This document shows, piece after piece, positions 59,811 through 64,000 of a DNA stretch of 64,000 nt (positions within the stretch are counted from its first letter, which is position 1; every line of letters starts with the position of its first letter). A program made the position numbers and the translations under genes. The DNA lies in the NCBI RefSeq assembly GCF_000307105.1, contig NC_018645.1, positions 5,094,001 through 5,158,000 of the forward strand, read 5' to 3'. The DNA is from Desulfobacula toluolica Tol2. GTDB lineage: Bacteria > Desulfobacterota > Desulfobacteria > Desulfobacterales > Desulfobacteraceae. The notes under the pieces were generated by a model, which saw only the letters and a list, made by a program, of their open reading frames with translations, did not search any database and was not told the origin of the DNA.

Positions 59811-60413
59811 CTATTTTTTTGGTTCAGTTTCAGGAAAAGAAAGAGATTGTGCCAGCACAAAAGCAGCCTGGAGATAGGAAGTCGGGCATAAAGGAAAGCA
59901 TTCTTTGCAATCATTACACTCTACCGCCGCTATTTCAGGTATAAAGCTGATCTCTTTGTTTATTCCCCTGTCAACAAATCCAAGGGCATGTTTTTGTGCC
60001 ACTTCCGCGCAGTATCTGACACAAAGACCGCAGTGAACACAAAAAGAAGGATCTTTTTCATACCGGTCTGCAACAGCACCATACTCTTTTGCCATTTTCA
60101 TCAGTTCCGGAGAATCCGGAGCATGAGCCATCAGCAATTCTATGATGGTTTTTCTGATTCTGTCGACCTTTTCAGACCTGGTCCTGACAATTATATTTTC
60201 TTCCACCGGATAAACGCAGGAAACAACGAGCTTTGTCCAGCCGCGAACTTCTACTTCCACGATGCAGACGCGGCATCCCCCGAATGGTTCCAATTTTTCA
60301 TGGTGACAGAGAGTGGGGATATATATCCCTTCATTTTGAGCTGCCTCCAGAACGGTCATCCCTTCCGTTGCCTTTACTTGTTTTCCATCAATTTCAAATT
60401 GGATTTCACTCAT
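59811..60413 (-). CDS. 2Fe-2S/4Fe-4S subunit of the electron-transfer complex (BamI-like)
   Basis: A 200-residue iron-sulfur protein. The N-terminal plant-type ferredoxin domain has LCHHEKLEPFGGCRVCIVEV and a fourth cysteine in VVSCVYP. Then come two four-cysteine clusters, CVHCGLCVRYC near residue 120 and CNDCKECFPLCPTSYL near 168. It corresponds to the start of NuoG/HoxU and to BamI of class II benzoyl-CoA reductase clusters. The start overlaps the stop of the NuoF-like gene. Last gene of the five-gene module, cytoplasmic. The exact partner enzyme is not encoded in the window. Confidence 0.82.
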   Translation of the reverse strand: MSEIQFEIDGKQVKATEGMTVLEAAQNEGIYIPTLCHHEKLEPFGGCRVCIVEVEVRGWTKLVVSCVYPVEENIIVRTRSEKVDRIRKTIIELLMAHAPDSPELMKMAKEYGAVADRYEKDPSFCVHCGLCVRYCAEVAQKHALGFVDRGINKEISFIPEIAAVECNDCKECFPLCPTSYLQAAFVLAQSLSFPETEPKK

Positions 60414-62338
60414 TTTACTTTGCTCTTTTTAATTATCATTCTGTTTTCTTCAGGAACAGGAGCCGGAACAGGTTCGCCGGAAATCTTGGTCACTGCGCCA
60501 AAACGGGAGGGACAGACTTCAAAGCAGGTTCCGCACTTTGTACATTTCTCCTGGTCAATGATATGGATCATTTTTTTCGCACTGTCAATGGCGTCTGCAG
60601 GGCATTTTTTTGCACAGATCATACATGCCTTGCATTTGTCAGGATCGATATAAAATGCGATCAGCTCTTTGCAGGCCAGTGCCGGGCATTTTTTCTCCCG
60701 GATATGTGCTTCATATTCATCCCTGAAGTATTTCAAGGTACTCAGGAATGGATTGGGAGCGCTTTTGCCCAGGGCACACAGCGAGGCTTCAACAGCAGTT
60801 TCAGCCAGCTCTTCTAACAGTTCAATGTCGCCTTCTTTGCCCAGGCCTTTTGTGATGTTGGTCAAAATGCGGTGCATCTGGCGCAATCCTTCACGGCAGG
60901 GAACACATTTGCCACACGATTCATCTGTAAGAAACTCAATAAAGTACCTGGCAACATCCACCATGCAGGTATCTTCATCCAGAACGATCATGCCGCCTGA
61001 ACCCATCATGGAGCCGGCTTTGGTCAACTCGTCAAACCCAACTTGAAGGTCCAGCAGGTTTTCCGGGATACATCCGCCGGAAGGTCCGCCGGTCTGAACG
61101 GCTTTGAACTTCTTGCCGTTGGGTATGCCGCCGCCGATTTTATAGATGATTTCATTCAGGGTCATGCCCATGGGGACTTCAACCAGGCCCGTATTGGTGA
61201 TCTTGCCAACCAGGGAGAAAATCTTGGTTCCCTTGCTGCTTTCGGTTCCAACCGAAGAAAACCAGTCAGCGCCTTTGTTGATGATCAAAGGCACGTTGGC
61301 CCAGGTCTCAACATTGTTCAGCACAGACGGTCTTTCCCAAAGTCCCTTGACATTGGATCTAACATATTTGGGTCTGGGCTCTCCTGCTTTTCCTTCCAGA
61401 GAGGTCATCAAAGCTGTTGACTCGCCGCAGACAAATGCACCTGCACCCTGGTGGACAATGACTTTGAAGTCAAAGCCGGACCCCAGGATATTTTCCCCGA
61501 GCAGGCCGTATTCTTCAGCCTGTTTGATGGCAAGATTGATATTTTCAACTGCCAGCGGGTATTCCTGGCGAACATAAAAATAGCCTTCGTGGGATGCCAC
61601 AGCATATCCGCCAATGATCAATCCCTCTAAAATTGAATGGGGATTGCCCTCAAGAAGCGCCCTGTCCATAAATGCTCCGGGGTCACCCTCATCAGCATTA
61701 ACGATCACATATTTGATCGGTTCGGGTGCATTACGCGATCCTTCCCATTTTCTGCCGGCTGGAAAACCTGCACCACCACGGCCTCTGAGGTTGGATTTTT
61801 TGACCTCTTCGAGAACATCTATATCCGTCATCTCACCAAGGGCTTTGGCAAGTGCGGAGTAACCGCCAAGAGAGATGTAATCTTCAATACTCTTGGAGTC
61901 AATCTTGATGTTATTGCACAGAACCGTTCTTTCCTGGCTTCTGTAAAATGAGATATCTGATTCTTTGACTGCTTTTTCTCCGGTTGCAGGATCTTCAAAA
62001 AGCAGGCGGTCGATAACCTTTTTATTCTTTATGGTCTGTTCAATAATTTCGGGAACATCTTCAACTTTAACCTGAAGATAGCATATCTCTTCAGGATAGA
62101 TGACCACAACAGGTCCGCGTTCACAGAATCCCGGACATCCGGTTCCCTTGGTGCTGACTGTTGCTGCCAAACCCTGGTTTTCAATTTCCTGATGAAACGC
62201 TTCAATCACTTCATCTGCGCCTGAGGCAACACAACCGGCACCGGCACAGATTGAAATGCAGGGATTGTTCGGGTCTCTTCTGGATAATATTTCTTGCCTG
62301 AAGCTTTCTAATTCTCCGGGCGTATTTAACCGCGCCAT
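60410..62338 (-). CDS. NuoF-like NADH-binding flavoprotein (BamH-like)
   Basis: A 642-residue diaphorase. An N-terminal thioredoxin-like 2Fe-2S domain (CAGAGCVASGADE with KGTGCPGFCERGP) precedes the 51-kDa NuoF core. The core has GLRGRGGAGFPAGRKWE for NADH, then VNADEGDPGAFMDRALLEGN for FMN, and ESCGKCVPCREG for the N3-type 4Fe-4S cluster. A C-terminal 2x[4Fe-4S] ferredoxin follows (CKACMICAKKCPADAI and CTKCGTCFEVCPSRFG). The length and domain order match HndC/BamH-type subunits. It is flanked by NuoE-like and 2Fe-2S subunits in overlapping or closely spaced genes, so it is the NAD(H) entry point of the complex. Confidence 0.93.
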   Translation of the reverse strand: MARLNTPGELESFRQEILSRRDPNNPCISICAGAGCVASGADEVIEAFHQEIENQGLAATVSTKGTGCPGFCERGPVVVIYPEEICYLQVKVEDVPEIIEQTIKNKKVIDRLLFEDPATGEKAVKESDISFYRSQERTVLCNNIKIDSKSIEDYISLGGYSALAKALGEMTDIDVLEEVKKSNLRGRGGAGFPAGRKWEGSRNAPEPIKYVIVNADEGDPGAFMDRALLEGNPHSILEGLIIGGYAVASHEGYFYVRQEYPLAVENINLAIKQAEEYGLLGENILGSGFDFKVIVHQGAGAFVCGESTALMTSLEGKAGEPRPKYVRSNVKGLWERPSVLNNVETWANVPLIINKGADWFSSVGTESSKGTKIFSLVGKITNTGLVEVPMGMTLNEIIYKIGGGIPNGKKFKAVQTGGPSGGCIPENLLDLQVGFDELTKAGSMMGSGGMIVLDEDTCMVDVARYFIEFLTDESCGKCVPCREGLRQMHRILTNITKGLGKEGDIELLEELAETAVEASLCALGKSAPNPFLSTLKYFRDEYEAHIREKKCPALACKELIAFYIDPDKCKACMICAKKCPADAIDSAKKMIHIIDQEKCTKCGTCFEVCPSRFGAVTKISGEPVPAPVPEENRMIIKKSKVK

Positions 62339-62347
62339 AATTTTCCC

Positions 62348-62800
62348 CTACTCATAAGTTTTTAAGGCTTCTGCTGTTTTGACCGGTGACATCTTCCCAT
62401 GGACTTTACCACCAACTTCCATCACAGGGCCCAGTGCGCAGCAGCCGAGGCAGTTAACAGTTTCCAGGCTGAATTTCAGATCAAGATCTGTTTCGCCGGG
62501 TTTAATACCGATTGCTTCTTCCACCGTATCAAGAATACGGGTGGCTCCGCGGACATGACAGGCGGTTCCCACACAGATGTGGACTTTATGACGCCCTTTG
62601 GGAACCAGGCTGAATGCTTTATAAAAGGTGGCAATATGCTGGATACGGGTCAAAGGAACGTCTAATTTTTCACTGACCCTCCCCAAGGCCTCCTTGGGAA
62701 GCCAATTGTTTTCACTTTGAATATCAAGCATTATTTGAAGCAAACTGCTTACTTCACCATTATGTTTGTCAATAATTTGATCTACTTTCTCAATTTCCAT
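62348..62800 (-). CDS. NuoE-like 2Fe-2S subunit (BamG-like)
   Basis: A 150-residue thioredoxin-like ferredoxin of the 24-kDa NuoE family. Cluster ligands are in HICVGTACHVRGATRIL and VNCLGCCALGPVMEVGG (CX4C and CX3C pairs). The helical N-terminus ENNWLPKEALGRVSEKLDVP is typical. It passes electrons with the NuoF-like flavoprotein encoded nine bases downstream. AGGAAT precedes the ATG. No oddities. Confidence 0.93.
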   Translation of the reverse strand: MEIEKVDQIIDKHNGEVSSLLQIMLDIQSENNWLPKEALGRVSEKLDVPLTRIQHIATFYKAFSLVPKGRHKVHICVGTACHVRGATRILDTVEEAIGIKPGETDLDLKFSLETVNCLGCCALGPVMEVGGKVHGKMSPVKTAEALKTYE

Positions 62801-62854: not shown

Positions 62855-63625
62855 TCACTGGACTCGCTGATAACATTTGCTGTCTGTATCATATTTAACC
62901 ATACCGTGCCGGGATGAACTGATCATGTGCCGGGATACATCAGACGGGTTAAGACCTAATTTCTCAGCAATATCACCGGTTGACAGAGGATTGTCTTTCA
63001 GGAGCAACATAATCTGGCTGACAGCCAGTTTATCTGAAAAGATATCACCAAACAATGCGTTCATTTCACTGCTTTCGAAAAACTCGGTATAGGTTTGTTT
63101 TGATTTAAACGGAACCCTGAGCCTTTCTCTTTCTGCCAGCCTCATGTAGGGAACAAGTTTCCTGGCGGCTTCAAGCTTGAACTTTACCGTATCAGCGTCC
63201 ATGCCTTCGCTTTTGCCAAGTGGCCCCAACTCTTTTATCTGTCTTGCAAAATCATCGGTATATTCTGCTAAAAGATTACCGTCCGCACCTGACATAAATT
63301 CGGTTCTCAGCCGGTTCGGGTTTAATCCTATGTGTTCCAATATCTTCCTGGCAATGTGTGTATTGGCAAGGGCATCGTAATTGCCATGGGTGACATAATT
63401 GCATTCGTCCAATTTACATCCGCCAATAAACACACCGTCTTGTCCGTTTGCAAAGGCTCTGAGTATAAATTCCAGGTCGACTCTACCGGAACACATAACT
63501 CTAATAAGCCTCATTTCATTTGCATATTGCAGTCTGGAAACTCCAGCCAGGTCAGCAGCACCATACGCTCACCAATGGCATACAAAACCTAATATTCTTG
63601 GTTTAAATTCAAGACCTGTACTCAT
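62855..63625 (-). CDS. Selenoprotein: MvhD/BamF-like hydrogenase iron-sulfur subunit
   Basis: A 256-residue MvhD-family protein in which codon 19 is an in-frame UGA (63569-63571). The frame begins STGLEFKPRILGFVCHW, then UGA, then AYGAADLAGVSRLQYANEMR, and is continuous with LIRVMCSGRVDLEF, GVFIGGCKLDECNY and the rest. Homologues have CxxC at this place, so the UGA replaces the second cysteine and is read as selenocysteine (CHWU). AAGGAGG precedes the ATG at 63625 ideally; a start after the UGA (63514) has none and would cut the cluster domain. The C-terminal 80 residues form a winged-helix-like tail (TGDIAEKLGLNPSDVSRHMI). It lies between HdrA-like and NuoE-like genes and would relay electrons between them. 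Confidence 0.9.
63534..63571 (-). promoter_or_regulatory. UGA-Sec codon and candidate bacterial SECIS hairpin
   Basis: Reading on the minus strand, the UGA at 63571-63569 is followed after 22 bases by the hairpin CTGGAGTTTCCAG (63546-63534), a 4-bp apical stem with a GU-containing loop. Distance and loop composition suit a bacterial SECIS element bound by SelB. The stem is short and was judged by eye only. Confidence 0.55.
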
Positions 63626-63687
63626 TGTTTCCTCCTTTATTCATAGCCCCTTTACAAATATTGCGGGCTTTATTCATGGGATAACGC

Positions 63688-64000
63688 CTATACATTTTCA
63701 AGCACCGCATCCATCTGTTCTATGACATCTTCCTTGGCAGCCGCCGTGTCAACCTGTTCAAGCACCGAATCCATCTGTTCTATGATATCTTCTTTTGTAA
63801 TTGCCGCATCAATCTGATTAAAAAGTGCATCATTGGTAAAATGCTTTAAAACAATGGCATTTGTCGGACACTTTGCATTACACAAACCATCACCTTTACA
63901 CAAAATCGGATTTACCCAGGCTTTTTTGCCTTTGGGTGTATCACGGAACTCAATGGCATCATATGTACACGCTGTAATACATGCACCGCAGGACACACAA
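63688..64000 (-). CDS. HdrA-like (BamE-like) C-terminus, partial
   Basis: The 3' end of a heterodisulfide-reductase-A-type protein running in from the right edge. Two 4Fe-4S clusters are visible, CVSCGACITACTYDAIEF and CKGDGLCNAKCPTNAIVLKH, followed by the usual LFNQIDAAI-type tail. The tail is extended by an exact 20-residue-period duplication (QIDAAITKEDIIEQMDSVLE then QVDTAAAKEDVIEQMDAVLE). It is the first gene of the module seen here, 62 bases upstream of the selenoprotein. The FAD domain, where bifurcation would occur, lies outside the window. Confidence 0.85.
   Translation of the reverse strand, partial: CVSCGACITACTYDAIEFRDTPKGKKAWVNPILCKGDGLCNAKCPTNAIVLKHFTNDALFNQIDAAITKEDIIEQMDSVLEQVDTAAAKEDVIEQMDAVLENV
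63699..63818 (-). repeat. 60-bp tandem duplication in the HdrA-like tail
   Basis: Two 60-base units (63699-63758 and 63759-63818) share long identical stretches such as ATCCATCTGTTCTATGA and encode two copies of a 20-residue helical segment at the C-terminus of the HdrA-like protein. The period is exactly 20 codons, so the frame is kept. Confidence 0.85.

Follow-up and report, generated by a model that had tools for sequence, protein, structure and literature searches.

Selenocysteine (Sec) in BamF belongs to the background of class II benzoyl-CoA reductases, and our literature search for BamF named as a Sec protein returned no passage saying so. The available parts of the published sources describe several related systems. 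The MvhD domain is listed as a selenoprotein family with the motif CxxU (PMC13188914), Desulfobacterium autotrophicum has four Sec mvhD genes (PMC2702500), and 19 FrhD selenoproteins have been tabulated (PMC1794560). The title of Loeffler et al. 2011, as given in the reference list of PMC4148979, applies the term "W/Se-containing" to class II benzoyl-CoA reductases, and BamE of Desulfococcus multivorans is reported with a Sec codon (PMC5109826). In addition, duplicated bam clusters are known from Geobacter FRC-32 (PMC1924859) and Desulfotomaculum gibsoniae (PMC4148979). BamF of Geobacter metallireducens (Gmet_2083) is tabulated as 'hydrogenase, delta subunit; HTH mo' (PMC1924859; the entry is cut in the source). 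In the available text of PMC13119186, BamF is predicted to bind selenite, and 'selenocysteine' appears once, in a reference title.

We analyzed a window of 64,000 nt (G000:C1:5094001-5158000) from the 5,197,905-base single-contig genome of Desulfobacula toluolica Tol2. The sequence-only reading of this window had proposed that an in-frame UGA makes an MvhD/BamF-like subunit a selenoprotein. The codons of homologues, the conservation of a hairpin, the Sec machinery and the surrounding gene set all support that proposal, and bamF of a class II benzoyl-CoA reductase set is very probably a selenoprotein gene whose UGA codon 19 is read as Sec. The predicted product would bear selenium and serve as an electron-transfer subunit in the enzyme complex for opening aromatic rings without oxygen.

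The bamF gene and its gene set

The features of bamF and of its neighbors within the window are as follows.

bamF: 62855..63625, minus strand; MvhD/FlpD domain (residues 11-134), helical linker and C-terminal winged helix
In-frame TGA, codon 19: 63569..63571 (63571-63569), minus strand; second place of CxxC, C16-H-W-U19
Ribosome-binding site AAGGAGG: 63631..63637, minus strand; 5 nt ahead of ATG 63625
bamE 3' end (HdrA-like): 63688..64000, minus strand; its Sec codon 70 is outside the window
NuoE-like gene: 62348..62800, minus strand; thioredoxin-like [2Fe-2S] subunit, lettered BamG here
bamH (NuoF-like): 60410..62338, minus strand; FMN/NADH subunit
HoxU/NuoG N-terminal-like gene: 59811..60413, minus strand; Fe-S subunit, lettered BamI here

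The letters BamG and BamI are our own; in the available part of PMC1924859, bamG is tabulated as HoxU. When the TGA is taken as a residue, the frame runs without interruption across it, as had been suggested, and gives 256 residues with a single internal U at codon 19. The coding part (62858-63625) is closed by a terminal TGA, with a TAA directly after it. The start was expected upstream of the UGA with an AAGGAGG site, and the site is indeed found at 63637-63631. The expectation of MvhD-like sequence on both flanks of the UGA agrees with the PF02662 (FlpD/MvhD) match, which spans residues 11-134 (E 7.6e-45; 152.3 bits vs a curated cut-off of 22.3). Gene calling with table 11 yielded only a shortened ORF of 219 aa that starts at 63514, the very position foreseen for ordinary calling; standard calling would thus drop BamF residues 1-37, the CxxU motif among them.

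Upstream of bamF, mostly past the window edge, lie genes for BamE (HdrA-like), BamD (CCG-domain), MoeA, BamC and an AOR-type BamB (PF01314/PF02730), and downstream lie the NuoE-, NuoF- and HoxU-like genes. BamC was named from its position and Cys motifs; Pfam gave nothing for it at E 1e-6, and its NCBIfam matches are weak. Among the matches listed, none of the 8 gene-set proteins reaches an NCBIfam cut-off. Judged by sequence, with its AOR-, HdrD-, HdrA-, MvhD-, NuoE-, NuoF- and HoxU-like genes, the set is bamB-bamI of a class II (tungsten) benzoyl-CoA reductase with moeA inserted, and the MvhD-like subunit is BamF by virtue of this set around its gene.

Domain structure of BamF

Winged-helix (ArsR-like) C-terminal domain, residues 186-250: 62876..63070, minus strand; PF01022 E 2.4e-7, and the structure model

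The AlphaFold2 model of BamF has a pLDDT of 87 and a pTM of 0.84. Foldseek searches with the model retrieved MvhD chains of Hdr complexes (E 1.7e-13 to 2.3e-12), with target-normalized TM scores of 0.87-0.92 for 5odc_D, 5odh_D, 8rvu_F and 7bkb_F; 5odc_D, 8rvu_F and 7bkb_F match BamF in sequence as well as in fold. Every other match is weak (E 0.01 or worse): lumazine synthases lead, and winged-helix regulators, HlyU and SmtB among them, come after. The MvhD domain has five conserved Cys/Sec positions (16, 19, 45, 70 and 75), and its mean top-residue share (0.79) exceeds that of the winged helix (0.66). The presence of an ArsR-like winged helix on an electron-transfer subunit is recorded here as a separate observation.

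Codon 19 among homologues

A search of the phylum at 1e-40 gave a match in 165 of 395 genomes. Loci taken from the matches listed were joined with those of a scan of genome contigs, and among the phylum matches the place of the TGA was read in the retrieved loci only. The 101 rows included 82 full-length ones (query start <=9, end >=240), and removal of 12 identical repeats left 70 distinct homologues with 51-100% identity. Outside the 70 stand 19 rows. Five do not show codon 19, either because the contig or match ends (L069, L070, L105, L116) or because bases are unreadable (L117). L071 stops at query residue 195; it shows TGA19 together with the same hairpin. The other 13 are shorter MvhD matches, with TGA19 in L007, L008 and L009 and a Cys codon in ten.

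The UGA was said to sit where homologues have the second Cys of CxxC, and this is borne out: codon 19 is TGA in 65 of the 70 distinct full-length homologues, TGC in 3 and TGT in 2. These five Cys genes are a biased share of the 70, since 15 regions were hand-picked, including the four full-length rows of at least 50% identity from outside the Tol2 genome that were listed as stop-free. No codon besides TGA, TGC and TGT occurs at position 19 in the 70; a sense codon for neither Cys nor Sec, which would have spoken against the proposal, was thus sought there and found in none. Codon 70 of the same homologues is TGC or TGT in 70/70. The scan of genome contigs used peptide patterns that cannot favor TGA, the pattern across residue 19 having Cys. 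It gave 41 loci, none of them from a Geobacter record. TGA stands at codon 19 in 35 of these; four loci that are not of the BamF type (36-43% identity) have TGA at 70 and Cys at 19, and the other two fall short of codon 19.

A candidate SECIS hairpin

Predicted bSECIS core hairpin CTGGA-GTT-TCCAG: 63534..63546, minus strand; starts 22 nt after the TGA, with its loop 27 nt after

A small hairpin had been noticed 22 bases 3' of the UGA, and its core (63546-63534) lies at exactly that distance. The 13-nt core CTGGAGTTTCCAG is present in 65/65 distinct TGA genes vs 0/5 Cys genes, and it always begins 25 nt 3' of the first base in codon 19. Synonymous entropy was compared over the 83 columns where a residue with a four- or six-codon family is common to 50 or more of the 65 genes. 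The five lowest values (0, 0, 0, 0 and 0.27) all belong to codons 27-31, in contrast to a mean of 1.71 and a minimum of 0.75 for the other 78 columns; Gly47 and Val43, for example, are each written with four codons. Selection on the protein does not account for such low synonymous variation. The hairpin is kept with TGA only and its codons are the least synonymously variable, showing selection at the RNA level for a predicted bacterial SECIS element.

Folding the region as a bSECIS gave a divided result. The 5-bp stem, the 3-nt GUU loop and the 27-nt spacing fall within the limits of the published bSECIS model, as described in the available part of PMC13188914. The fold energy 3' of the TGA is no better than that of shuffled sequences (z -0.25; 66 of 200 shuffles equal or better). 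The 44-nt stretch of bamF folds at -8.2 and the 23-nt hairpin alone at -6.0; over the 44-nt stretch, the published limit of -7.5 kcal/mol is reached by 43 of the 65 TGA genes, and the GUU hairpin appears in the minimum-energy fold of 55. Over the same stretch the 5 Cys genes are more stable on average (-10.3) than the 65 Sec genes (-8.5). Fold energy was therefore dropped as evidence, and the case for a SECIS element rests on synonymous-codon conservation. An Rfam search of 63300-63800 with a limit of E 10 gave three matches, none of which comes near its gathering score. A core of the CTGGAGTTTCCAG type was searched for in L007, L008 and L009, the other TGA19 MvhD genes of Tol2, and is absent from them.

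Selenocysteine machinery and other TGA-bearing genes

The proposal called for Sec machinery in the genome, and all four components searched for were found. The tRNA-Sec scores 76.5 bits vs a cut-off of 47 and has the anticodon tca (ARAGORN). SelA (605.6 bits), SelB (358.7) and SelD (360) each have one match over the respective cut-off, and the SelD gene itself holds one internal TGA. Genome-wide recoding of TGA was considered and ruled out, because TGA terminates other genes: it ends 6 of 13 nearby genes checked, the end of bamF itself included.

The Tol2 genome holds 16 FlpD domains, eight of which have an in-frame TGA (seven besides bamF). One of these eight has two TGA, and the lowest-scoring of the 16 has a TAA. 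Among the eight alignable non-BamF domains, TGA occurs at position 19 in L008 and L009, at 70 in L002 and L005, at both in L007, and at neither in L001, L003 and L004. As a side observation, L007 (G000:C1:1369770-1370138) is an MvhD gene whose two in-frame TGA codons match BamF 19 and 70.

Additional bam copies, proposed mechanism and alternatives

A second copy of bamDEFGHI lies at about 449-458 kb, with DNA 99.2-99.6% identical over two blocks (L025 9445-17809 vs L024 3761-12181). An 849-nt stretch with bamF shows zero differences between the two chromosomal copies. The BamB beside the second copy differs, being 64% identical to the first, and this copy also adjoins genes that look, from their sequences, like those of the later benzoyl-CoA pathway. 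Alignment of the two copies breaks at 63691-63790, where the C-terminal end of BamE contains a repeat (KEDIIEQMDSVLEQV / KEDVIEQMDAVLENV). In addition, a Cys-type BamE-BamF pair is found at about 3392-3396 kb (L106 12439-16358), its BamF paralogue at 3395.6 kb; the pair is possibly a selenium-free counterpart. A fourth BamF-type gene, at 4886.7 kb, has TGA19, is 51% identical and adjoins a Cys-type BamE.

From these data we infer the following course of events. SelB would bind the hairpin 23-35 nt after the UGA and bring Sec-tRNA to codon 19, where the ribosome would insert Sec rather than stop. Sec19 would then replace the second Cys of the N-terminal CxxC in the MvhD domain and may take part in ligating a cluster; the domain is expected to carry a [2Fe-2S] cluster. 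This cluster would relay electrons between BamE, the flavin subunit of HdrA type, and the subunits that handle NADH.

Sec insertion could also be real and serve mainly as a selenium-responsive switch on the level of BamF, not cluster chemistry. The Cys-type BamE-BamF pair of Tol2 is in keeping with such a role, as is an analogous pair of Se-dependent and Se-free hydrogenases described in the available part of PMC2702500; however, the alternation of Cys and Sec at a conserved redox motif favors chemistry first, and we regard a mainly regulatory role as unlikely. It is far less probable that the TGA terminates a short peptide and that ATG 63514 opens the functional protein, as in the table 11 ORF of 219 aa. 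This start would lose C16 and residue 19, which are invariant (Cys; Cys/Sec) in a 34-row alignment, and among the 70 homologues the mean top-residue share is higher for residues 8-38 (0.86) than for residues 39-135 (0.77). An error of sequencing or assembly, by which a TGC, TGT or TGG was read as TGA, had been named as a possible refutation and would take one base change to give the Cys codon of five homologues, including the Tol2 paralogue at 3395.6 kb, but it can hardly be credited given the identical 849 nt of the second copy, 64 other distinct homologues with TGA at the same codon, and a hairpin that accompanies TGA only (65/65 vs 0/5).

A Sec codon in BamE and its pairing with BamF

BamE TGA codon 70: L024 10655-10657 (66655-66657 on the window scale, outside the window), minus strand

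Apart from the reading of bamF codon 19 as Sec, both bam copies of Tol2 have a TGA at BamE codon 70, within a CSMU motif. Among 43 distinct BamE genes of at least 60% identity, codon 70 is TGA in 32 and a Cys codon in 11, and the run CTGGTCGAGGTCGGCCG follows it at a fixed offset in 32/32 TGA genes vs 0/11 Cys genes; below 60% identity, CTGGTCGAGGTCGGCCG is present in 2/3 TGA and 0/3 Cys genes. The conserved hairpins of bamF and bamE are ready markers for finding such genes.

In 40 loci where both genes could be read, the states of BamE70/BamF19 are Sec/Sec in 30, Cys/Sec in 5, Cys/Cys in 5 and Sec/Cys in 0, a nested pattern that is a lead and not a test, since the loci are related to one another and some were picked by hand, with both Tol2 copies and near-identical relatives among them. 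The pattern might reflect an ordered use of Sec, in which BamF may have Sec without BamE and BamE would have it only alongside a Sec-bearing BamF; we offer this tentatively, as a possible but doubtful reading. If it were true, two selenium sites would stand in series at the entry of the bifurcating flavin, and the Sec of BamE would pay off only with that of BamF. Together with the Cys-type pair in the same genome, the nested pattern provides natural variants with which to test the role of selenium in anaerobic ring reduction.

Comparison with known systems

Published work already covers both Sec in MvhD and the selenium of class II benzoyl-CoA reductases, and bamF of Tol2 is ordinary for such bacteria; the nested Sec/Cys states of BamE and BamF and the doubled bamDEFGHI are less expected. 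BamF shares both its domain and its CxxU motif with the Sec-containing MvhD and FrhD proteins. Unlike the known Sec MvhD proteins, it continues into a helical linker, ends in a winged helix and is encoded in the context of a bam gene set. The label 'HTH mo' of G. metallireducens Gmet_2083, incomplete in its source, may be compared with this winged helix. The Tol2 locus has the bamB-bamI set in common with the class II benzoyl-CoA reductase (Bam complex), and it differs from the known Bam systems in having two near-identical bamDEFGHI copies with two different BamB.
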